Positions 22,396 to 36,209 of a stretch of 36,209 nt of DNA are shown here, in pieces; the first letter of the stretch is position 1, and each line of letters starts with the position of its first letter. Position numbers and translations under genes: made by a program. The notes below the pieces were generated by a model. The model was given only the letters and a program-made list of their open reading frames with translations, was not told the DNA's origin and did no database searches. The DNA comes from a virus. The stretch spans positions 1 to 36,209 of IMG/VR virus record IMGVR_UViG_3300027847_000728; one strand, 5' to 3'.

Positions 22396-24669
22396 CTATT
22401 CCCTACCCCTTCGTCCGATGCCGGGTGCGGACCTAGCCGCAGCGCGCATCGCATTAATTCCACCCTCGCTGGTCACGAAACTCTCCAACTCTTCTGCCGT
22501 GAGACTCAACAGGAAGTGAGCAATCTGTGGATCGGCGAGTGCTTCAGCCGTGAGCCTGTCCGCTGCACTTGGTGGAAGGCCACTTGTCACCTTGTTTAGG
22601 ACTGCGGCCACCCTTCCAACATTGCCACCACCACCTGTCACGCTGTCCGCTATGCCCTCGCGAACTCTCCCGCTACCTGTCTCGGAGGCTTGCTTCATCT
22701 GCCCAGACGAGGAGTAGGTCGCGGCGCGCTTCAACTGCATCGCATCGAGAATCTCCTCATACTCGTTGTCTCCGAGTATTTGCCGGTAGGCTCTTCCCTC
22801 AGAGTTGCCAACCTGTCGCAGAGTTTTCAAGCGTCGAGTCAAGCCTGAAGAGTTGTCAATGAGGCTGGAGTTCTTTTCGAGGTGTCTCACCGCAGCGGAT
22901 CGGATGAGTTCCCACTCCTCACTGCCCTCTCCAACAATTTCCTTCACCCGGTTGATTACGTCCTCAGAGCGCGCCTTGTGCTGCGGGCTCATCATGCTCT
23001 TGATTATTGAGTCACCGTTCTTTCCACGCAGCGCCGCCCTGGCCGCATACGCCGCCTTGGCCGCTGGAGTTGCAACGGTCCCAGGCTTGGGCGGGTCCAA
23101 TTCGTTGATCGCCTTTTTGAATGCGGCCCGCGCCTCCATCAGTTGCGGGGCATCATCCATCCCAACCGTCTTGGCGATAGACCCGTCGATCGCATCCTCG
23201 ACCTCCGAAATTATTTTACCGAGCGCGTGGGCGAGTTTTCCGTTTGGTTCTGCACCGGAGAGAGCCTCCCTCTGGGCAGCCTTGAGATCCATAGCCATCT
23301 CATCAACGTCCTGTAACGAGATGAACCTCCCCTGCTTTTCCATCGCACGCTCTACTATCGAAAGTTCAAACGGGTCCAGGGCCAACTGCTTACCAGCGGA
23401 CAGACTGCCGTAGGCCGCTTCAACCTTGGCCCTCAGAGCGATCCCGTCAATGGGAGGAGCGTTCTGGTATGCCGCAGTGCTTTGGTATGGGGTTCGCGCA
23501 TCTCGCAGGCGTCCGACCAGCGTCTCATCAATCGCTGCCGCAGCGTCATCGCTGACCCCTGCCCCCCTGCGGGCGTTGAGCCGAATGTCTGCCGCTTCCT
23601 TGGCCTGATCGCTTGCCGATGCAAGCCTCTGCTGGAATACCGGGGCTTCGCCGAACTCCTTTTCGAGGTTTGCTATGCGGAACCCGCCGGTCCCATAGTC
23701 CCCGCTTGTACCGAGAACCCCAACCGTAGTCGGCACTACCTCACCAGCGGCTTGGCGCGCCCCTGCCTCTCCAAGTTGCTCGACCGCCTCATCCCACTTT
23801 TTCTGCTGGTGGAGCAAAGCCTCTAGCAAGGAATCGTCACCCGCTGCCCTCGCCCTTTCAAACTCAATCGCCGGGACTTCCCTGCCCAGCAATCCACCGG
23901 CCAGTCGCTCGCGGGCCTTCACAATGTCCTGGGGATTAACTCCAGGGTCACCGGGTCGCGTGGGTAGGTCACCTCCCACAGACTGCAACCTAGAGCGCAG
24001 CGGACCACCGGGTCGGACTGATGGGGGTAGCTGCGCCTCTGCTATACGACTCGCTGCGGCAGCATTGGCGTCCAGCCCACCGGCCAATTTGCCAGCACCT
24101 CCACCGCCAACCACCGCAGCCCCCAGAGCAAGACCGCCCAGAGCCAAAGGATTCTCTACGCCCATAGACTGGGCACCCTCGATGGCAGCGTTCCCTCCCA
24201 AAGTGCTAGCAATGGTCGCTGCGGCTAGGGGGATACCCTTCGCGGCCCCTTTAATGAGAGGCACGGCCCCACCCCCAGGAGAGAAGATGCTGGCCGCACC
24301 CTCGGTGCCCCATGACACTCCCTTGCCTAGTCCAGTCTTCGGGACGTAGGTAGCATGGTCGCCGAAGAGCGATTGCATATCACCGGCCATGTTTGTTGGC
24401 GCGTCAAGTTCGTTGCCCTGAGCGAAGTTGTAGGCGGCACCCAAGCCCTTGAAGTATGGGGCTTCTGCGTTAACTGCCAAGTCGGCGAGTGCAGCAAGGC
24501 CAACGGGGACGTTGGTCAAGCCCCTTAGCGCGCTGCGTCCTATATCCTCGGGATCGATATCTACGCCTTGGATAGACATTTCAGGGGAGCGTGGGGAACC
24601 TTGTGGCTCCCAAACGGGTTCAGTCCATCCCTTCTCTTTTGGGAAAGACTCGCCGGTATGCGGAATCAT
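22396..24669 (-). CDS. Large internal virion / ejection protein, 757 aa
   Basis: ATG 24669 forms an ATGA overlap; an ATG at 24678 is three codons longer. The N-terminal 200 residues are Gly/Ala-rich with hydrophobic stretches (LALGGLALGAAVVGGGGAGK), resembling pore-forming ejection proteins. The rest is mostly long helices (for example DEMAMDLKAAQREALSGAEP). No enzymatic motif seen. It lies between the 394-aa internal protein and the fibre gene. By position and composition it should be packed in the head and cross the envelope during DNA delivery. Confidence 0.65.
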   Translation of the reverse strand: MIPHTGESFPKEKGWTEPVWEPQGSPRSPEMSIQGVDIDPEDIGRSALRGLTNVPVGLAALADLAVNAEAPYFKGLGAAYNFAQGNELDAPTNMAGDMQSLFGDHATYVPKTGLGKGVSWGTEGAASIFSPGGGAVPLIKGAAKGIPLAAATIASTLGGNAAIEGAQSMGVENPLALGGLALGAAVVGGGGAGKLAGGLDANAAAASRIAEAQLPPSVRPGGPLRSRLQSVGGDLPTRPGDPGVNPQDIVKARERLAGGLLGREVPAIEFERARAAGDDSLLEALLHQQKKWDEAVEQLGEAGARQAAGEVVPTTVGVLGTSGDYGTGGFRIANLEKEFGEAPVFQQRLASASDQAKEAADIRLNARRGAGVSDDAAAAIDETLVGRLRDARTPYQSTAAYQNAPPIDGIALRAKVEAAYGSLSAGKQLALDPFELSIVERAMEKQGRFISLQDVDEMAMDLKAAQREALSGAEPNGKLAHALGKIISEVEDAIDGSIAKTVGMDDAPQLMEARAAFKKAINELDPPKPGTVATPAAKAAYAARAALRGKNGDSIIKSMMSPQHKARSEDVINRVKEIVGEGSEEWELIRSAAVRHLEKNSSLIDNSSGLTRRLKTLRQVGNSEGRAYRQILGDNEYEEILDAMQLKRAATYSSSGQMKQASETGSGRVREGIADSVTGGGGNVGRVAAVLNKVTSGLPPSAADRLTAEALADPQIAHFLLSLTAEELESFVTSEGGINAMRAAARSAPGIGRRGRE

Positions 24670-25850
24670 TCTCCCCATATCATCTCCCGCCCATCGGGCA
24701 TCCTGTAAATATCATTCCCTGCGCTGTCCACGCGCCCTGTTGGGGTTGCCCCGGAATCAGCGGGCGGGCCGGAAGTCTGGCCGGAGCCAATTTCTGGTTC
24801 GGCCCCTGGCATTTCGACCGCGAGGTCGTACAGAAGTATTTGCCCTTCTGGTTGGTTCGCCGCGACCTGTGCCGCACGCTTGTTGTGAGCAGAGATGACG
24901 TTCCTGAAAGCCCGCTCGTTTATTTCCATGAGTTTGCGAATAGCGCCCTCGCTTACGGTGATGTTGCCTCCGACTATCTTCTCCGCATATTCCCTATCCG
25001 CATCTGATAGACCAGTCCCAGCACCAAATTGCTTGATAATTTGCCCAACTTGGATTCCCATCGTCGCCGCGAACGCTTGGGTATTTGCGACAGCATTCCC
25101 CTTATCCTCCATGCCAAGCCTGCTGACCACTAGGTTGCCGAAGTCGGTAATGAAGTTGGCCCCGGTGCCGGTGACTATCCCAGAGTCAATGATCTTCCTA
25201 GCCTCCAGTAGGCCCCGAAGACCAGTCTGGGCACCCACTGCATCAGCACGCCCCTCAAGTACAGCCTTCGCCATCTCATCGCCGAGTTTCGCATACGCGC
25301 CAGCGCCCGTGCTTACGTTTACGCTGGTGCCCGGTGAAGTGGGGGCCGGGGTCATGCCGAAGGAATCCTCGCGGCTGACGTAGATCGGGTTCCCCTGAGC
25401 GTCGAGGGCCTTGACGGGTGGGTGGGACTGCTGCTGCTGGAATTGCGTGTAGAGGCCGATCAGTTCCTTCGCCTTAGCGTATCCCTGCCCCGGATAATTC
25501 CGGTGGGCGATGGTCACCAGTTGCGCCATGTGCTGCCGGTTCATTGGGTCGAACCCGTTGTTGGGGAAAGCGTTGCTGAAATCCTTCTGCATCTGCATCC
25601 CGCGCCGCTGCTGATCCTCTTGCTGCTGCCGCTGGTACTGCTGGGCCTGCATCATCGCAGCGCCCTCGTAGTTTCCTCGGCCCGCCGCATAGGCGGCAGG
25701 CAGTGCGGCGAAGAGGTTCCGCATCCCAGACCCCCCGCCCTGCTGACCACCTCCGAGACTTCCCGCGATCGGGCGAGCCACTGAGCCCAGTATCTTCCCA
25801 GGGATCGCGGCTACGTCTCCAAGACCTCGCTCTATGTCACCCCATGCCAT
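24666..25850 (-). CDS. Internal virion protein, 394 aa
   Basis: ATG 25850 lies 14 nt inside the previous gene and is favoured over 25883. Features: a Gly/Ala-rich N-terminus, a Gln-rich helix (QAQQYQRQQQEDQQRRGMQM near 70-89), a central beta/helical region and a Pro-rich C-terminus (EIGSGQTSGPPADSGATPTG). Helical Gln-rich internal proteins are typical of podovirus ejection complexes. No family named. Confidence 0.6.
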   Translation of the reverse strand: MAWGDIERGLGDVAAIPGKILGSVARPIAGSLGGGQQGGGSGMRNLFAALPAAYAAGRGNYEGAAMMQAQQYQRQQQEDQQRRGMQMQKDFSNAFPNNGFDPMNRQHMAQLVTIAHRNYPGQGYAKAKELIGLYTQFQQQQSHPPVKALDAQGNPIYVSREDSFGMTPAPTSPGTSVNVSTGAGAYAKLGDEMAKAVLEGRADAVGAQTGLRGLLEARKIIDSGIVTGTGANFITDFGNLVVSRLGMEDKGNAVANTQAFAATMGIQVGQIIKQFGAGTGLSDADREYAEKIVGGNITVSEGAIRKLMEINERAFRNVISAHNKRAAQVAANQPEGQILLYDLAVEMPGAEPEIGSGQTSGPPADSGATPTGRVDSAGNDIYRMPDGREMIWGE

Positions 25851-26409
25851 AACCAGTACCCCCCTGTAGCCCGTGAAACGCATACGGGTTTATCATCTTC
25901 TGCTGTGGCATTTGAAACTGGGGCTGGGGCGGGGTGGGGCTTCGCTCCACGCCCTTGTCGAAGAGGCGACTATGCATCCGCGCCTTTGAGAGACCGCCTA
26001 GCTGACCATCCTCCATGAGCGTTTCGTCCAGATCGTCCTCGGGGATTCCCATCGCCCCCCGGAACTGCTCACCGGCACCGCCCAGAGCTTCCTGTATCGG
26101 GGCAAAAGTTCTGCTCAGACCCCCCAGGATCGGCTGTACGCCGCGTTCCATGATCGGGTTGACTGCGTTGTCTACAGCGAAGCCCACCGCCTGCCCAGGC
26201 AACTCAAGGGCCTCACCTAGGAACCCTGCGGTTTGCTGACCTCGCTGCTCCCAGGGGCCTACCTCTTTCTGCAATTCCTGCTCCCGGCGAAGGTCAGCCC
26301 AAGATTGGCCTTGGCCGGGGTAACTGTGTAGAGGAGCGGGTTCGTTCCCGTCTCCGAATAGGCCACGTCCGAAATCCGCAGCACCACCTAGAAAATCTCC
26401 GAAGCCCAT
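25837..26409 (-). CDS. Small internal virion protein, 190 aa
   Basis: ATG 26409 has a GAGAT leader nine bases after the S74 gene. Gly/Phe-rich N-terminus (GFGDFLGGAADFGRGLFGDG), amphipathic middle (LELPGQAVGFAVDNAVN) and Pro/Gln-rich end. The N-terminal pattern resembles those of the two polyvalent proteins and the next gene. Probably virion-internal; no recognised domain. Confidence 0.6.
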   Translation of the reverse strand: MGFGDFLGGAADFGRGLFGDGNEPAPLHSYPGQGQSWADLRREQELQKEVGPWEQRGQQTAGFLGEALELPGQAVGFAVDNAVNPIMERGVQPILGGLSRTFAPIQEALGGAGEQFRGAMGIPEDDLDETLMEDGQLGGLSKARMHSRLFDKGVERSPTPPQPQFQMPQQKMINPYAFHGLQGGTGYGMG

Positions 26410-29829: not shown

Positions 29830-30477
29830 CTAGATACGAAACGCTCCATCCGAAGTAACGCCCTCCGCGTACATACGCCCACGCGGTCGATGCCGCGCCC
29901 TAACGTCCGCAGCGTGAAGGCCATCAATAGCTTTGCGATACAGTCCCTCAAATTCCGCAGAGCGCGCAGCATCTGCTAGATACGGTTGAGCCTCAAACAG
30001 AACCCCGTACAAGTACACGTCCGGGGCTATAGTGAGCAGGGTGTTTGTCTGGGACGCAGATGCTAGACCGTCGAACTCTTTGAAGTAGTTCATCGTGTAG
30101 GTCCGAGTGGCCGAGTCGGTCAGGGGGGCGAACTTCAGGTCTGTGCCCAGCACCGTGTAAAATCCCGGCTGCCCGGTGCCGCTCCTAGAACTTTCGAGCG
30201 ACCAGAACTTCTGCGGTGGCAGATACTCAAGCGTGCCGCCCGTCGATCCCGTCTCATAGAGGTCTATGATCTCAAGGAACCCGGTAGGCAGCGCCTGGGA
30301 GGAACTGGCAGCGAGTGTGAAGTCCTCCTGGGCCTCCATCTCTCGGATGCGGATATCGCGCCGGAACTTCGACTCCGCAAGGCCCAGCCATGTGTCGAAC
30401 ATATTCCCGATATCGTCGTAGGCCATGTAGGTCTGGACGTTTGTCTTGAGGGTCGAGTAGTTCGTGATCTGAGCCAT
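29830..30477 (-). CDS. Head-tail adaptor (tail tubular A / SU10-adaptor-like), 215 aa
   Basis: TGATG start at 30477. Starts with TNYSTLKTNVQTYMAYDDIG, helical AESKFRRDIRIREMEAQEDF and beta segments LPTGFLEIIDLYETG and PGFYTVLGTDLKFAPLTDSA. This is the pattern of adaptor proteins under the portal in short-tailed phages. Length is usual. It links portal to nozzle and lies directly upstream of the nozzle gene. Confidence 0.82.
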   Translation of the reverse strand: MAQITNYSTLKTNVQTYMAYDDIGNMFDTWLGLAESKFRRDIRIREMEAQEDFTLAASSSQALPTGFLEIIDLYETGSTGGTLEYLPPQKFWSLESSRSGTGQPGFYTVLGTDLKFAPLTDSATRTYTMNYFKEFDGLASASQTNTLLTIAPDVYLYGVLFEAQPYLADAARSAEFEGLYRKAIDGLHAADVRARHRPRGRMYAEGVTSDGAFRI

Positions 30478-30824
30478 CAGATTTTCCCTGGAGCCGTGCG
30501 TAGGTTGGAGTAGTCGCCATCGTTCAGCTTACGGGCGATCGCGGCCTTGTCCTCATCGTTCCCTCGCCAGATGTTGATGTTCTCCTCGATCGACCACTTT
30601 TCGAGGATCTCGTAAGGGATCTCGGCGACCTTCACATACTCGCCACCGTTCCAGAGTGCGGTGGACTTCCTCTCCGCGTTTAGGAAAGCCTTGTTCATGG
30701 TCAAGATCTCGCCGATGTTGTCCTGCTCGGAAACGATGGTCAGCGTCTTGTCCATATCATCGAACTTCATCTTGCGCTTCATCGGATCGCCCGGATCGTC
30801 CTTGAGCGTCTGCCACTGGCTCAT
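30477..30824 (-). CDS. Hypothetical head-tail region protein, 115 aa
   Basis: ATG 30824 has a GAGGTGGGGAC leader and overlaps the signal-peptide gene stop (ATGA). The protein is mixed alpha/beta, rich in Lys, Asp and Asn (KMKFDDMDKTLTIVSEQDNI, NAERKSTALWNGGEYVKVAE). Similar small proteins lie beside adaptor genes in marine podoviruses as I recall. It is the first non-secreted gene after the sulfatase cassette. Probably structural or an assembly factor. Confidence 0.62.
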   Translation of the reverse strand: MSQWQTLKDDPGDPMKRKMKFDDMDKTLTIVSEQDNIGEILTMNKAFLNAERKSTALWNGGEYVKVAEIPYEILEKWSIEENINIWRGNDEDKAAIARKLNDGDYSNLRTAPGKI

Positions 30825-31132
30825 GTCCCCACCTCACAAATCATCCCCGGGCTCACCCAGGGCATCTGATCTGCCTCTACACGATTGTCAGGCACTCCAA
30901 GCAGGCTGAAGCACGCCTCATGCCATGTCTCCAGAACCACACTCACCAGCCTGTCCCACTCTTCTTCGTTGCGTGTTAGGGGCTTGAAGCGTTCGTTGAG
31001 GGCCTGTGCGGGGCCTTCTCTCATCATCGCCATGCAGAACTGGTGGGCCTTAGATGACTCACTGGCCGAGACTGTTGCTGGGAGTATGAGCATTATAAGT
31101 GTCAACACCGCCGGAAGATTGATCACGGGCAT
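30821..31132 (-). CDS. Secreted small protein of the sulfatase cassette, 103 aa
   Basis: ATG 31132 overlaps the sulfatase stop by 10 nt; a GTGA start at 31126 is equally possible. Residues 1-23 are a signal peptide (INLPAVLTLIMLILPATVSA with cleavage after VSA). The mature part is helical with three Cys (FCMAMM, EACFSLL, GMICEVG). It may stay in the periplasm with the sulfatase. No family recognised. It resembles in layout a small periplasmic accessory protein. Confidence 0.65.
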   Translation of the reverse strand: MPVINLPAVLTLIMLILPATVSASESSKAHQFCMAMMREGPAQALNERFKPLTRNEEEWDRLVSVVLETWHEACFSLLGVPDNRVEADQMPWVSPGMICEVGT

Positions 31133-33042
31133 AGACTCGCATACGTTGGTAAGCAAGTAGCAGGCTCCTGATACGAAACAGTGGGGTTGGCAACGGTAGC
31201 GGGCCAAGCCTCTTCTATTGCTGACTGCATCGCGCAGACGGCTGCCAATAACTCAGCGTTAGATCCAATATCGCCTCTCAGATTATCGGAGTAGTTTGCC
31301 GCAGAGAAGTTTTGGACGTAATCGCAGCTAATGGGTCTTTGGGGAGACGATGGGTTGCCAGAAATGGTCTGACCGGAGTTTGGGTTCTTAGACAAGATGT
31401 AGATATCACCAGATGCGTCTGGGTCCATGCTCGCCTGCGCCTGCCACGGGCGACCTTCATCTGGGCAGAAGACCAAAGAGGCATCGCAACCGTAAATGTT
31501 CAAATCGCCTACGATGGTTATCCCGAACAAACTATCCTGATCAGATGCCGTGCCGTATATGAGTGGAGTGAAGTTTCTCCCTGAACCGTCGTGGGTGCCG
31601 GGGTTCACCGTGTTTGGGAAGTATTGTGCAGCCCGAGGGGCGACCAATTGGACGATAGTTTCCGCTACGTCTGCAAAGTTCAACCTTGCCGCCGAAGACG
31701 TATTCCTGAGTCTCTTGGGTATGCTTCCGTAAGCCACCACAAACGGGACATTGTATCCGGTCCCTGTGTTGGCATTTTTACCAAAACCTGATCTGGAATT
31801 AGCCGGGGCTGATGCTCCGATTAAAGTTGTCGCTGGAGTAGGCTGCACTGTGGGCGCATTGGGAATAAATGCCCCCGTGCGGTTGGAATAAAGATCGCCC
31901 GCAGAACCGTTGTCCCCTGTGAATATAATCAGGGTGTTTTCCAGACCGTGCGGGCCTAGCCATCCAATGAGCGTTCCCAAGTAATCGTCTAGCCACTTTA
32001 GCTGAGTCATTTGGCAGTCAAACCATGGCTTGTATGCTGGGATACTGTCCGCCCCGCCCGCATACAATATAGCAAACTCGGCGGCATCGTAGTTTGGGGT
32101 AGGCCCCTTAAGGGCTGAGTTGCCAGTGGGGAATGGAAGAGTCGTGAATGCGGCTTCCTGACCGGAAGTGGGATAGACGTACTTCCTACCGGTAGCATTG
32201 GCGGTTCTTTCTTGGGTGCAGTTGTACGAACCACCATTGTGGATAGAGTGCGGACTCAATGCAAGGATGAATGGATTCCCGGTTTGGTTTTCAAACCAGT
32301 TTGACTGAGCGGGGGTTTTAGAGTCATACAGACTCTCTATGTACTGTTCTATCTGGACAAAAGCTGCCTCATCCCGCCACATAATCTGTGTACCACCGAT
32401 TGTCCAAAGGGCAGTCTCATTGACAGGGACGGGGCCGGGACTGGCTAGCCCAGACCATTGGGGAAGGGTATCAACCCAACCGAATCCATTCCCGCCTGCA
32501 CTTGGTATGCTCGGGAAACACCCGGGCATGGTGCAGTCATTAGCCGGGCTACTTGACCCAAGTAAACCCTTTCCCCAGTGAGCGATAGCGTAAGCGTCCC
32601 CAGTTATGTCTTGTATTTGCCGCATGGGCGCGGCTTGGCCCAAGTTAGGACCGGATTCAGAAACATTTAGGGTAAAGTTGTTCCCTCTCTGGAGCATCTC
32701 GCGGGTCGCGGCACAGAACGAGCCTGACCACATCCCCGTGAAATTGATGCCGTTGAGCAACAGCTTGTTGAGGTTAGGCCAATGCGAACTAGGTCGAACC
32801 TCATAACTTTGCCCTAGTGGAGCCGCAGTAGCATCGAAACTCACATCACCAACGGAATTCGCGTAAGGGGACAACAACTGCTGGTACTGTTCCCGCCCAA
32901 GCTCATCAACCATGATGAATATTATGTTGGGGTGTCGGGATGCCTTGGTAACAAAACTTGCCGAACCACCTGAGAATGAGGAAGTCATCCCCACGCAAGG
33001 GATGAAGACCGTCAAGAATAACGCTATGAACCCCCTAATCAT
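31123..33042 (-). CDS. Secreted formylglycine-type sulfatase, 639 aa
   Basis: ATG 33042 makes an ATGA overlap, preceded by GAGGT. Residues 1-28 are a signal peptide (IRGFIALFLTVFIPCVG). Sulfatase landmarks follow in order: HPNIIFIMVDELGR (Asp46/Glu47), SGSFCAATREMLQRG with C-x-A-x-R formylglycine site Cys110-Arg114, HWGKGLLG (156-162), SPHSIH (His268), IIFTGDNGSAG (Asp377, Asn378) and SGFGKNANTGTGYNVPFVV with Lys422. The usual metal Asp pair is Asp-Glu here. The C-terminal part has many Cys, suggesting disulfides. It would hydrolyse sulfate esters, likely on a polysaccharide, in the periplasm or outside. DNA G+C appears lower than in flanking phage genes. Phage sulfatases are rare. Confidence 0.88.
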   Translation of the reverse strand: MIRGFIALFLTVFIPCVGMTSSFSGGSASFVTKASRHPNIIFIMVDELGREQYQQLLSPYANSVGDVSFDATAAPLGQSYEVRPSSHWPNLNKLLLNGINFTGMWSGSFCAATREMLQRGNNFTLNVSESGPNLGQAAPMRQIQDITGDAYAIAHWGKGLLGSSSPANDCTMPGCFPSIPSAGGNGFGWVDTLPQWSGLASPGPVPVNETALWTIGGTQIMWRDEAAFVQIEQYIESLYDSKTPAQSNWFENQTGNPFILALSPHSIHNGGSYNCTQERTANATGRKYVYPTSGQEAAFTTLPFPTGNSALKGPTPNYDAAEFAILYAGGADSIPAYKPWFDCQMTQLKWLDDYLGTLIGWLGPHGLENTLIIFTGDNGSAGDLYSNRTGAFIPNAPTVQPTPATTLIGASAPANSRSGFGKNANTGTGYNVPFVVAYGSIPKRLRNTSSAARLNFADVAETIVQLVAPRAAQYFPNTVNPGTHDGSGRNFTPLIYGTASDQDSLFGITIVGDLNIYGCDASLVFCPDEGRPWQAQASMDPDASGDIYILSKNPNSGQTISGNPSSPQRPISCDYVQNFSAANYSDNLRGDIGSNAELLAAVCAMQSAIEEAWPATVANPTVSYQEPATCLPTYASLCP

Positions 33043-33956
33043 GGAATTACCTCGGCAGTGAAGGTCACATCCATTGCTGTGATCCCGGCACAAGTGTTGC
33101 CTCCTCTGAAGAGACCAAAGTAGTCGTAGTTGGAGCCACCACCTGTGGCCGTTGTGGTTACAATGACAGTCAGTGTCTCTTCAGCATCGACAGTGGACGA
33201 GAGGGGGAAAATAAGCTGACGATCAGGCGTGCCGTCATCGGCGTTACCCTCCCACATAGTAATGATGCAACCAGTCCCGGTGCCAGGTGAAGTCCCTGCT
33301 GTAATTGTGGCAGTCATAGTTAGACTCCAGTCCGTAGATGCCCCTACCCCCACATGGGAGATTCCTATCGGGCCGCTACAACCGGCTGTCGGAGGGGTTA
33401 TGCCTGCCGCAGTACAAGTATTTAAAACTGGGGGGTCGTAGATGACCTCGGCTCCGGGCGCGTAAGTCAGCACCTCGCCGAAGGCGAGATACCCGGAATT
33501 CCCAGCGCTTCCTGAAAGTCGGTAGGGACTCGTTTCTACTATCCAGTCTCCACCGGGGTCTTGCGCAGTGACGATATTCCTCAAAGAAGTCCGAATTTTG
33601 AAGGCATTGTTGAAGATGGGGCAAAACGTGTTGATTGAACCATCTGCCCCAATAGTGCAAATCACGGAGCGGTCTAGGCTCGTTCCACCAAGGCCCAACG
33701 TGAATGCATCTGGTCCTAAGCTAGAACCCTCCGAGAGTACGATATTAGACCCAGTGGCCGCTGCCGGGGTGGCTATGATCCCCGCCCCTGCATCATTCAA
33801 TACTAGGTTCCCAGTGGCGTCTTCGCAGATGCCGGATGCGGCGGGGCAAGTGCCAAGGCCACCACCACCCCCACCGAACGCATTACCCTGCGCCAGGGAA
33901 ACGGATGGCAGGCAAAGCAGAACCGCCGCGAAGAGTACGCTCATCAACCGACTCAT
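33039..33956 (-). CDS. Secreted beta-rich protein of the sulfatase cassette, 305 aa
   Basis: ATG 33956 forms an ATGA overlap with the 154-aa gene and has a GGGGAG leader. Signal peptide at residues 1-22 (SRLMSVLFAAVLLCLPSVSLA, cleavage after SLA). The mature protein starts GNAFGGGGGGLGTCPAASG, is poor in charge and rich in Gly, Thr and Ala, and has paired Cys (for example TCPAASGIC, NTCTAAG...AGCSG). Beta-sandwich or adhesin-like folds fit. It resembles fibre-like virion decoration sequence but carries an export signal. Confidence 0.7.
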   Translation of the reverse strand: MSRLMSVLFAAVLLCLPSVSLAQGNAFGGGGGGLGTCPAASGICEDATGNLVLNDAGAGIIATPAAATGSNIVLSEGSSLGPDAFTLGLGGTSLDRSVICTIGADGSINTFCPIFNNAFKIRTSLRNIVTAQDPGGDWIVETSPYRLSGSAGNSGYLAFGEVLTYAPGAEVIYDPPVLNTCTAAGITPPTAGCSGPIGISHVGVGASTDWSLTMTATITAGTSPGTGTGCIITMWEGNADDGTPDRQLIFPLSSTVDAEETLTVIVTTTATGGGSNYDYFGLFRGGNTCAGITAMDVTFTAEVIP

Positions 33957-34417
33957 TGAGATCCACTCCCCGTGATTGTTACGAGAGAAACTTCTGCGCC
34001 TGCCGGTGCGGTGGATACTTCGATCCACCATGAGCCGGTGAGCATCACAAAGCAGTCGGTCGGGATACCGGACAGTGTCGAGGTGCTAGCCGCTGAAGGG
34101 ATAAAACTCCCAACCTTCAGGCCACTGGAGGAGACCCTCCAGAACTTCACCACCGCAGCACCCGCAGACGCGCTACCCGTATCGGAGTCGAAGCAGGCGA
34201 TCGCGTTGTAGCTCGGCACGCTGAAGGTCATTGAGTTACCGGTATTTGCCGCGTTGCTGCCGAAGTAGCAAGTATCGCCGGAGTCGATCGAGCAGGACCG
34301 GGTGCTTGTCGGAGACTGCTCTCTTGTGAGTTGCTTGGTTCCTGAGTTGGCGTATGCCGTGCCCGCAACCATTGAGGCAAGGAGCCCGAACATTGGGACA
34401 AGTGTGACGAACTTCAT
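33953..34417 (-). CDS. Secreted Cys-containing protein of the sulfatase cassette, 154 aa
   Basis: First gene after the capsid gene, with its own GGGAG leader. Signal peptide at 1-23 (FVTLVPMFGLLASMVAGTAYA). Mature part is Ser/Thr-rich with RSCSIDSGDTCYFG, IACFDSD and TDCFVML (four Cys), beta-rich, ending near WWIEVSTAPAGAEVS. Similar in style to the next gene, so perhaps related by function. Not recognised. Confidence 0.68.
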   Translation of the reverse strand: MKFVTLVPMFGLLASMVAGTAYANSGTKQLTREQSPTSTRSCSIDSGDTCYFGSNAANTGNSMTFSVPSYNAIACFDSDTGSASAGAAVVKFWRVSSSGLKVGSFIPSAASTSTLSGIPTDCFVMLTGSWWIEVSTAPAGAEVSLVTITGSGSQ

Positions 34418-34433
34418 GGATTTGCTCCCTACC

Positions 34434-34490
34434 TAAAAAACAGAGTGGGCGACTGGGGCAGGGATGGAGGCATCCAAAGCCCCACCCCAG
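34434..34490 (-). terminator. Nested stem-loop with downstream U-run after the capsid gene
   Basis: Reading leftward, CTGGGG (34490-34485) pairs with CCCCAG (34458-34453), and an inner GGATG-CCTC-CATCC hairpin lies inside (34475-34462). A run of six T follows at 34439-34434, 14 bases downstream. It may attenuate transcription or process mRNA between the highly expressed capsid gene and the secreted cassette. The T-run is too far for a textbook intrinsic terminator. Confidence 0.42.
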
Positions 34491-34506
34491 CCACCCGGTG
34501 AACTTG

Positions 34507-35496
34507 CTAGTTGAGGTCTGCGATGAGACCGTGGGCGTAGGTGTTAGACACCTGAAGCGTCCACTCGACAGTCATCATCCGATCCTGACCGTCTCCGACC
34601 ACCGCGAGATCCTGCTCTTCCCAGGGTCGCAGGTACGCGACACCGATCTGCTCGGGGTCGATCAGCCAAACATCCCGATCCACTGTCGTAACCTTCCGAA
34701 GGTGACGCGATGCCACTACGGAAAGTTGCCCGTAGTTGCTGACGTAGACTTCGGCGGTGCCCATGATCGTGCGACTTGACCGATCGGAGCGGGTTACATT
34801 GTTGCCGCCCGTTGCCGTGTTTGCGAGACCATCGAACCCGCTGAAAACTCCGCGCTGCTTCGCGCCAGCCACGATCAGGCTCGGCTTGCCGCCATCAGTC
34901 CAGCAATCCTCGATCACATCGGTCAACAAACCTTCAGTAAACGCTCGTTGCTTCGTTGTGGCCGCTTCCGTATCCACTGCGGCCCCGTCGAAAGTGCCAG
35001 GGTCCGCACCAGATGTACCCGTACCTACCGTCCCTCGGCTGGCGTTTCGTACCCAACTGTCGAGGCTCGCGGAACGCCTCGTTGCGGACGAAGACTTGGC
35101 GATGTGGGAGGTCGTAATTGCCATATCCACATCGGTCTTCAGTTCGCGTGCCGCCTTTGCTGCCGCGTATGCGATAGCCGAGTCGAATCCGGCATTGTTG
35201 ACCGACTGCATCGTGTTCGACACCCCGTAGACCTTCTTGCTGATCTGGGTGTAGTTACCCAAGCGTGTCTGGGTCAGGTTGTCGGTCACAGTGCCCGAAG
35301 CCGCGCCTTCCGCTGCCGCGTTGCTGGCACTGGGTGCGATGAGCGTGTCTTCCAGCCATTCGTGGAGGGTTGACGTTGCGGTGAGCGTTTTCGCTGCTGA
35401 GAGTACCGGAGTCTCGCTCGGACTCAGGTTCTCGATGATAGAGCCGAGATCCTCGCGAATCCCTGCCATAGGTGCAGTTGTTACTGATTGTCCCAT
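34507..35496 (-). CDS. Major capsid protein, SU10 (DUF5309) type, 329 aa
   Basis: ATG 35496 with GAGGT eight bases upstream. The pattern is that of the SU10 major capsid family: APMAGIREDLGSIIENLSPS and ETPVLSAAKTLTATSTLHEW at the N-terminus, NLTQTRLGNYTQISKKVYGV, a central RELKTDVDMAITTS helix, GKPSLIVAGAKQRGVFSGF, and LIDPEQIGVAYLRPWEEQDL with a final LQVSNTYAHGLIADLN. HK97-like fold expected. It follows the scaffold gene, as usual. High confidence from family pattern and gene order. Confidence 0.92.
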   Translation of the reverse strand: MGQSVTTAPMAGIREDLGSIIENLSPSETPVLSAAKTLTATSTLHEWLEDTLIAPSASNAAAEGAASGTVTDNLTQTRLGNYTQISKKVYGVSNTMQSVNNAGFDSAIAYAAAKAARELKTDVDMAITTSHIAKSSSATRRSASLDSWVRNASRGTVGTGTSGADPGTFDGAAVDTEAATTKQRAFTEGLLTDVIEDCWTDGGKPSLIVAGAKQRGVFSGFDGLANTATGGNNVTRSDRSSRTIMGTAEVYVSNYGQLSVVASRHLRKVTTVDRDVWLIDPEQIGVAYLRPWEEQDLAVVGDGQDRMMTVEWTLQVSNTYAHGLIADLN

Positions 35497-35502
35497 CTTG
35501 AA

Positions 35503-36209
35503 TTACCTCGTTTTATTGAGTTGCTCTCGGCGCAGGAACGCATTCGCGATTGCGTCGAGAGAACTATCCGTTTTCATTGCGCTGACACTCTCATTGAAAA
35601 CCGACTGTTCGCGTTGCCCGGGGTCAACAGGAACCCCGGCCCGGACATTGGGCATCGTTGAGAGTTTCTTACGGATTCGAGGAGTCGCTTCCCTTACCGT
35701 CATGCCTTGCTCATCGGCCAGCATTGCTTTGTAGGCGATGAGGACTTGACGGGGATCTACTACCTGATTCCAATTCTCCGCTGAGAGACCTCCTCCCGTT
35801 GGAGACGTGATCCACCGTCCGACCTGCTCGTAGGTGGCATCAAAGTCTTTCGCGAACGCTGGCTCCATCGACTGAAGCTCTGAAATCGCTCGCGGTATCT
35901 GTTCCTGTCTGGCCTGCTGGTTCAGCGCGTTCTGCTCCTGATAGGCCATCTGAAGCATCTGGTCTCTGCGCTGGTTGTCCTGCATCCTCGCGGCATACTC
36001 GCCTGGGTTCTGGACCCTCAGTGCCTCAAGCTCTCGCGGGTCTTCTTTGTGGTTCGCGAGTTCCGCCTGAAGTTGCTGCGCCACTTCGTTCATACGCTGT
36101 GCGGCAGCGGCCTGATCCTGTGTGACACTCTGCGCGTAAGCCTCGACCTTGCGCCGGTCCTCGCCCAACTCCTGAGCCTTCCGGGTGTAGTCGGACTCGC
36201 GGTGATAGC
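35503..36209 (-). CDS. Capsid scaffolding-like protein, C-terminal part (cut by window edge)
   Basis: Continuation of the gene at 579-1. Without the duplicate terminal overlap its unique portion is 35931-35503, ending with TAA six bases before the capsid start. The region is Gln/Ala/Glu-rich helix (MLQMAYQEQNALNQQARQEQ) and ends with a basic helix, FLRREQLNKTR, as expected for a coat-binding C-terminus of a scaffold. The overlap differs from the left copy by two amino-acid changes (Gln/Glu and Glu/Ala). Confidence 0.75.
   Translation of the reverse strand, partial: YHRESDYTRKAQELGEDRRKVEAYAQSVTQDQAAAAQRMNEVAQQLQAELANHKEDPRELEALRVQNPGEYAARMQDNQRRDQMLQMAYQEQNALNQQARQEQIPRAISELQSMEPAFAKDFDATYEQVGRWITSPTGGGLSAENWNQVVDPRQVLIAYKAMLADEQGMTVREATPRIRKKLSTMPNVRAGVPVDPGQREQSVFNESVSAMKTDSSLDAIANAFLRREQLNKTR
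35932..36209. repeat. Right copy of the terminal overlap
   Basis: Matches bases 1-278. Differences from the left copy lie at 36058, 36085, 36086, 36094, 36099 and 36121; all fall in 64 bases, three of the five affected codons are synonymous. This pattern suggests real strain variation rather than random sequencing error. Confidence 0.93.

Follow-up and report, generated by a model that had tools for sequence, protein, structure and literature searches.

Why would a phage carry four genes for proteins with signal peptides, one of them sulfatase-like, in the middle of its virion genes? The question is raised by the IMG/VR virus record IMGVR_UViG_3300027847_000728, whose 36,209 bases are the whole stretch analyzed here (the window). 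The sequence is that of a phage with SU10-type head genes, and we take its genome of ~36 kb to be essentially complete because the terminal 278 bases (1 to 278 versus 35932 to 36209) are near-identical and a scaffold gene spans the window's end join in a related contig. The end repeat has 6 mismatches; it could reflect terminal redundancy or a circular assembly of mixed strains.

A sequence-only reading had reported four consecutive overlapping genes for proteins of 154, 305, 639, and 103 aa among the virion genes. We find them (g1 to g4) in that place, all on the minus strand, flanked by the major capsid gene on one side and a further head gene on the other, with overlaps of 4 nt (g1/g2), 4 nt (g2/g3), 10 nt (g3/g4), and 4 nt (g4/next head gene). 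The features of the locus are as follows.

34507 to 35496, minus strand: major capsid protein (SU10_MCP by Pfam), upstream neighbor of the cassette; context, not part of the module.
34420 to 34510, minus strand: gap between the capsid gene and g1, containing a strong hairpin and then six U.
33953 to 34417, minus strand: g1, 154 aa, signal peptide (MKFVTLVPMFGLLASMVAGTAYA, then cleavage, then NSG...), Cys-containing.
33039 to 33956, minus strand: g2, 305 aa, signal peptide, Gly-rich mature N terminus, conserved core, variable C-terminal part.
31123 to 33042, minus strand: g3, 639 aa, predicted exported S1-type sulfatase (Pfam, profile, AlphaFold2 model); candidate catalytic residues D46, E47, C110, R114, K158, H268, D377, N378, and K422.
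30821 to 31132, minus strand: g4, 103 aa, predicted to be exported, the most conserved cassette member.
31092 to 33664, minus strand: exchanged segment in the comparison with contig 3300024520_000226; it runs from a point within g2, across g3, as far as the g4 signal peptide.
30477 to 30824, minus strand: phrog_3982 head gene directly downstream of the cassette; context, not part of the module.

The surroundings of the cassette are those of virion genes, as had been claimed: an SU10-type major capsid gene lies upstream, and phrog_3982 and an SU10 adaptor lie downstream. The g4 start is the ATG at 31132, and a longer TTG reading to 31207 is not required. The hairpin between the capsid gene and g1 (MFE −45.5 kcal/mol, z −3.66) was not listed by a simple terminator scan; it is possibly a partial terminator ahead of the cassette.

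We rejected an assembly chimera on three grounds: the same junctions are present in a 100% identical contig (L002), they recur in a contig whose dataset number is different and whose flanks are 89 to 99% identical, and cassette-free relatives display the empty site. In two such relatives, MW202462 and Methylophilales phage Venkman, the capsid gene directly adjoins a phrog_3982 homolog, so the cassette looks, from sequence comparison, like an insertion between these two genes.

When 2.9 million IMG/VR contigs were scanned with each cassette member as query (sulfatase, g4, g2, and g1), the results converged on 13 public contigs besides the window, or ~10 further viruses after identical contigs were merged. 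The gene order proposed for a virome search thus recurs in an independent contig, there in the same place as well, and in other phage lineages. Wherever the contig continues, g4 lies directly 3′ of the sulfatase (11/11, with one g4 cut by the contig end); a signal-peptide g2 with a common 80-aa core lies 5′ of the sulfatase in all seven distinct viruses with that side, and g1 lies upstream of g2 in five of seven (homologs in L003, L004, L013, and L015). The backbones comprise SU10-type capsid phages (the window and L003), phages with a T7-like terminase (L014, L015/L070, and L017, search-tested for L070 only, the others being judged from their sequences), and relatives of Roseobacter CRP-901 and Pelagibacter HTVC023P (L012/L013, by adaptor search; L005, L016, L018, and L020 are placed here by similar neighboring genes only); L004 is listed separately as a further backbone. 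The cassette is, on this comparison, a conserved module carried by at least three unrelated podovirus (short-tailed) backbones.

The module appears to be confined to a small set of viruses. A peptide-pattern scan found no g4 in 84,980 prokaryotic genomes, and neither the window and L004 sulfatases nor g4 nor two g2 proteins had a match among 50,697 phage records, in which tblastn found no relative even at an E value of 1. The L015 sulfatase matches only two of these records, both from the INPHARED entry “Acinetobacter phage MD-2021a” (CAKLQH020000010.1, our L074, and CAKLQF020000014.1) and both apparently misfiled. We rejected them as genuine phage genes: in the region examined of CAKLQH020000010.1, the sulfatase is surrounded by metH, pitA, fepA, and other chromosomal genes, so the records look like bacterial contigs. 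Among PHROG families, g3 has only a weak match, to phrog_19870, which has no named function and is weakly matched by seven of eight cassette sulfatases in all (best E value, 1.8e-9); sulfatase-like proteins therefore exist elsewhere in prokaryotic viruses. The open-licence papers searched describe no phage-exported sulfatase module. The enzyme family is already known, and the earlier statement that no phage module of this makeup has been described holds for that literature and for the 50,697 phage records.

Is g3 a sulfatase? It matches Pfam Sulfatase PF00884 with 47.8 bits (curated cutoff, 25), the sulfatases of seven relatives also exceed 25 bits, and all full-length members scanned pass the cutoff. 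A profile of the cassette family finds solved sulfatases in the PDB (E value, 3.4e-14). An AlphaFold2 model built on 46 sequences, cellular sulfatases included, reached a pTM of 0.82 and a mean pLDDT of 70.5, superseding a model from 8 sequences that was too poor (pLDDT 46.5). Foldseek with this model returned S1 glycan sulfatases from the PDB (E value, 4.9e-14), and all 50 listed matches are sulfatases. The structure prediction called for by the sequence-only reading thus indicates that g3 has the alkaline-phosphatase-type S1 sulfatase fold.

The nearest known enzymes are S1 (formylglycine) sulfatases, for instance those of Bacteroidota that act on carrageenan, porphyran, and gut glycans (PDB 7stt, 6bia, 6psm, 9fo1, and 7oz9). 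With these enzymes g3 shares the fold, the Pfam family, the catalytic Asp/Cys/Arg/Lys/His/Asp-Asn/Lys set, and a signal peptide. Unlike them, it is phage-encoded, ~100 aa longer, and always accompanied by g4 and g2; it is only 12 to 16% identical to its best structural matches, has a relaxed CxPxR motif, and falls in a separate clade. In a maximum-likelihood tree against 38 cellular sequences, all returned by a single motif scan, the nine phage sulfatases form one clade (support 100/99), within which the long-branched L015 protein is less surely placed. In a viral structure library, the sulfatase-named matches to the g3 model come from giant viruses (Terrestrivirus, Yasminevirus, and Tetraselmis virus 1); these are also viral proteins of the same fold, but they belong to viruses of eukaryotes and are 10 to 13% identical to g3. 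To our knowledge, no cassette surrounds them.

The claim that all core motifs are present was slightly too strong. Nine of ten usual active-site positions are filled in the window g3, and one of these holds a conservative change, with Glu (E47) as the second metal-binding Asp in the window and L003. Every member that covers these positions retains D46, C110, R114, K158, H268, D377, N378, and K422. The window has CAATR in place of CxPSR; across the family the Cys and Arg of CxPxR are invariant, and Pro occurs in 36/36 aligned cellular relatives but in only two of nine phage members (L012 and L017), the others having A, V, M, or T. No phage member has the His of GKWHLG. With CxPxR relaxed and this His missing, it is uncertain whether formylglycine forms and whether the protein is catalytic. 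A search of eight phage contigs for an FGE was negative, and maturation of the sulfatase would therefore rest on the host.

These same departures (the relaxed CxPxR, E47, the absent His, and the lack of FGE in the phage contigs searched) would suit a protein that retains the sulfatase fold to bind a sulfated glycan and no longer catalyzes. That the lost His alone marks a dead enzyme is an argument we consider weakened: most sampled cellular relatives also lack His at this position, carrying mostly Gln, and in some cases Gly or Arg, so that it is not strictly defining. Moreover, the catalytic residues from C110 to K422 are kept despite identity down to ~25%. A purely binding role seems quite improbable, and g3 is, on its residues, probably an active, divergent S1-type enzyme; sulfatase-type catalysis is fairly likely.

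All four N termini have a short n-region, a hydrophobic core, and an AxA-like end, in line with the Sec signal peptides first proposed. A heuristic rule (hydrophobic core plus the −3/−1 rule, not SignalP) passes 30/30 cassette proteins from ten phages and 0/34 other window genes. Export is strongly supported because the signal peptides are retained in homologs down to ~25% identity, and the cassette proteins very probably leave by the Sec pathway. The cysteine patterns of g2 and g4 fit an oxidizing compartment: g2 has an invariant pair (C100 and C112), and two g4 Cys are jointly absent in the related L004 and L018.

Could the proteins nevertheless be parts of the particle? Exported g2 or g3 might attach to virions, for instance once the cell has lysed, and then serve at entry as a depolymerase does. 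The cassette does sit among virion genes in the window and L013, and in one phage pair its variation is matched by that of a putative tail protein. However, the phage proteins of this kind (depolymerases, tailspikes, and glycan deacetylases) belong to the virion and lack a signal peptide. All cassette members tested carry one by the heuristic, which runs counter to assembly of virions in the cytoplasm and therefore disfavors ordinary tail assembly. We also rejected g2 as a tail-fiber relative, which an apparent fiber-like motif had suggested: its conserved core has no match to a PHROG, Pfam family, or solved structure or to any other ORF in the fetched loci, and two g2 proteins match no phage record. 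We consider a particle component unlikely.

The partners of the sulfatase offer few clues from known families. Neither g1, g2, nor g4 belongs to a PHROG or contains a recognizable tail or spike domain, and sequence searches found no convincing structural relative of g4. For g1, a single weak 22-residue match to a designed trefoil in the PDB was taken as chance. A separate observation concerns a motif common to g2 and the sulfatase: [FY]x0-3GG occurs at most 20 residues after the predicted cleavage site in 13/15 proteins, against a background of 2.7%, the 15 being related rather than independent (g2 and g3 of the window and homologs in L003, L004, L005, L013, L014, L015, and L017). The motif may serve both proteins for docking or processing.

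Sequence change in the sulfatase outpaces that of the genes around it. Most virion proteins of the window are 92 to 98% identical to those of contig 3300024520_000226; between these two close phages, the one pair from which the exchange is known, the ~2.6-kb segment at 31092 to 33664 has been replaced, with mostly 33 to 57% nucleotide identity inside and 89 to 99% in the flanks. GC3 is lower in g2 and g3 (0.55 to 0.56) than in neighboring genes (0.65 to 0.82). The same pair differs elsewhere: a putative tail protein at 22396 to 24678, without a family match, is 27% identical and is a candidate receptor-binding protein varying in parallel with the sulfatase segment; divergence is moderate for the products of 24666 to 25883 (78%) and 25837 to 26409 (62%); and there are differences in the methyltransferase region as well. 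The major capsid protein, too, is only 71% identical between the two phages.

Changes within the enzyme are similarly uneven. In the one related sulfatase pair compared (L004 5608 to 6635 versus L018 1 to 1013), 39/55 codons differ in two loops, 35 of them changing the amino acid (dN 0.56, dS 0.50), versus 38/281 codons in the core (dN 0.04, dS 0.10), with the loops defined after seeing where the changes lie. The first variable loop sits between the catalytic Asp-Asn and Lys. By this sequence comparison the loops show strong relaxation or diversification; positive selection is not proven, because the loops were chosen post hoc and their dN/dS is ~1.

When would such proteins act? The cassette follows the capsid or another head-region gene in the window, L003, and L013 and follows the terminase in L014, L015, and L017. 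In L004 and L015 the genes directly 3′ of it are a small membrane gene and one for an M15 endolysin, which a Pfam match identifies in L004 and which is probable in L015, where it is judged from the sequence without a Pfam match. The L014 cassette adjoins a similar small membrane gene, and small membrane coiled-coil genes lie 3′ of g4 in most relatives; no lysis genes adjoin the cassette in the window or L003. This late, partly lysis-linked position favors action around lysis over early exclusion or nutrition.

Exclusion of rival phages deserves consideration, since exported proteins could alter or mask a sulfated receptor so that rivals cannot adsorb, and both the export of the cassette proteins and their diversification are expected of a receptor-linked function. 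Exclusion genes, however, are usually expressed early or from prophages, and a place in the late operon, next to lysis genes in some relatives, leaves little time to protect the cell; such a role is improbable.

A nutritional role fares worse. Sulfate is not limiting in seawater, and exported partners, a late position, and rapid exchange are atypical of metabolic genes; all three are found here, the sulfatase having three more exported partners. Its cellular matches are partial and mostly 22 to 30% identical, higher only over short stretches, rather than the close homologs expected of a host-acquired auxiliary metabolic gene. It is thus very unlikely that the exported sulfatase feeds the infected host by releasing sulfate or desulfated sugars, even though named relatives of the cassette backbones include marine phages and precedents exist: Pseudoalteromonas phage-encoded FGE genes have been interpreted as auxiliary metabolic (PMC10232697), and a list of viral AMGs from deep groundwater includes a sulfatase (PMC10029852).

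Taken together, export, the partners, the late region, and a turnover faster than that of the neighbors point to a variable sulfated glycan outside the cell, and the cassette's target is reasonably likely to be a glycan. The explanation that we favor, tentatively, is an exported late sulfatase module acting around lysis. The four genes would be expressed late in infection as a conserved module able to move between phages, and the host Sec pathway would export all four products. Outside the cell, g3 would take sulfate esters off a sulfated polysaccharide of the host envelope or the surrounding matrix; g1 and g2 would probably bind glycan or keep the enzyme at the surface, with g4 as a conserved partner; and the sulfatase loops, with the linked C-terminal part of g2, would be exchanged or diversified as host glycans vary. 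With sulfated glycan stripped around lysis, progeny could leave the debris or matrix and would not readsorb. We infer this lysis-stage benefit with something short of even confidence, and we favor it on account of the late-operon position of the cassette and, in some relatives, the lysis genes right beside it. The late remodeling of a sulfated surface suggested by the sequence-only reading thus gains partial support: lysis-gene adjacency in some relatives and the swapping and diversification of the enzyme fit a host-glycan target.

The proposed role resembles known ones only in part. Like phage depolymerases, tailspikes, and glycan deacetylases, the cassette would act on host surface polysaccharides and is variable between close phages; unlike them, its proteins carry signal peptides, and the chemistry would be desulfation. 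Like viral receptor-destroying enzymes such as influenza neuraminidase, it would strip a surface glycan, and progeny would be freed without rebinding, but there is no homology, and the analogy is functional only, the cassette's role being itself inferred. The cassette may, at a little below an even prospect, be a self-contained, extravirion system for desulfating glycans (an exported enzyme, a variable g2, and two conserved accessories) that moves among unrelated lytic podoviruses and diversifies with the sulfated glycans of their hosts.

Attack on host polysaccharides by enzymes that the virion carries is known in phages. The module suggests that these rare environmental phages remove sulfate from the outer sugars of their hosts as infection ends, and if this is true, a dedicated exported sulfatase operon would represent a different strategy. 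It would also offer a genetic way to ask whether environmental bacteria, marine ones included, use sulfated surface glycans as a shield and whether phages have a counter to it. As a simple marker, and the best one, for finding more such modules, g4 stands out, and the concentration of loop changes beside catalytic residues hints at what may set substrate specificity.
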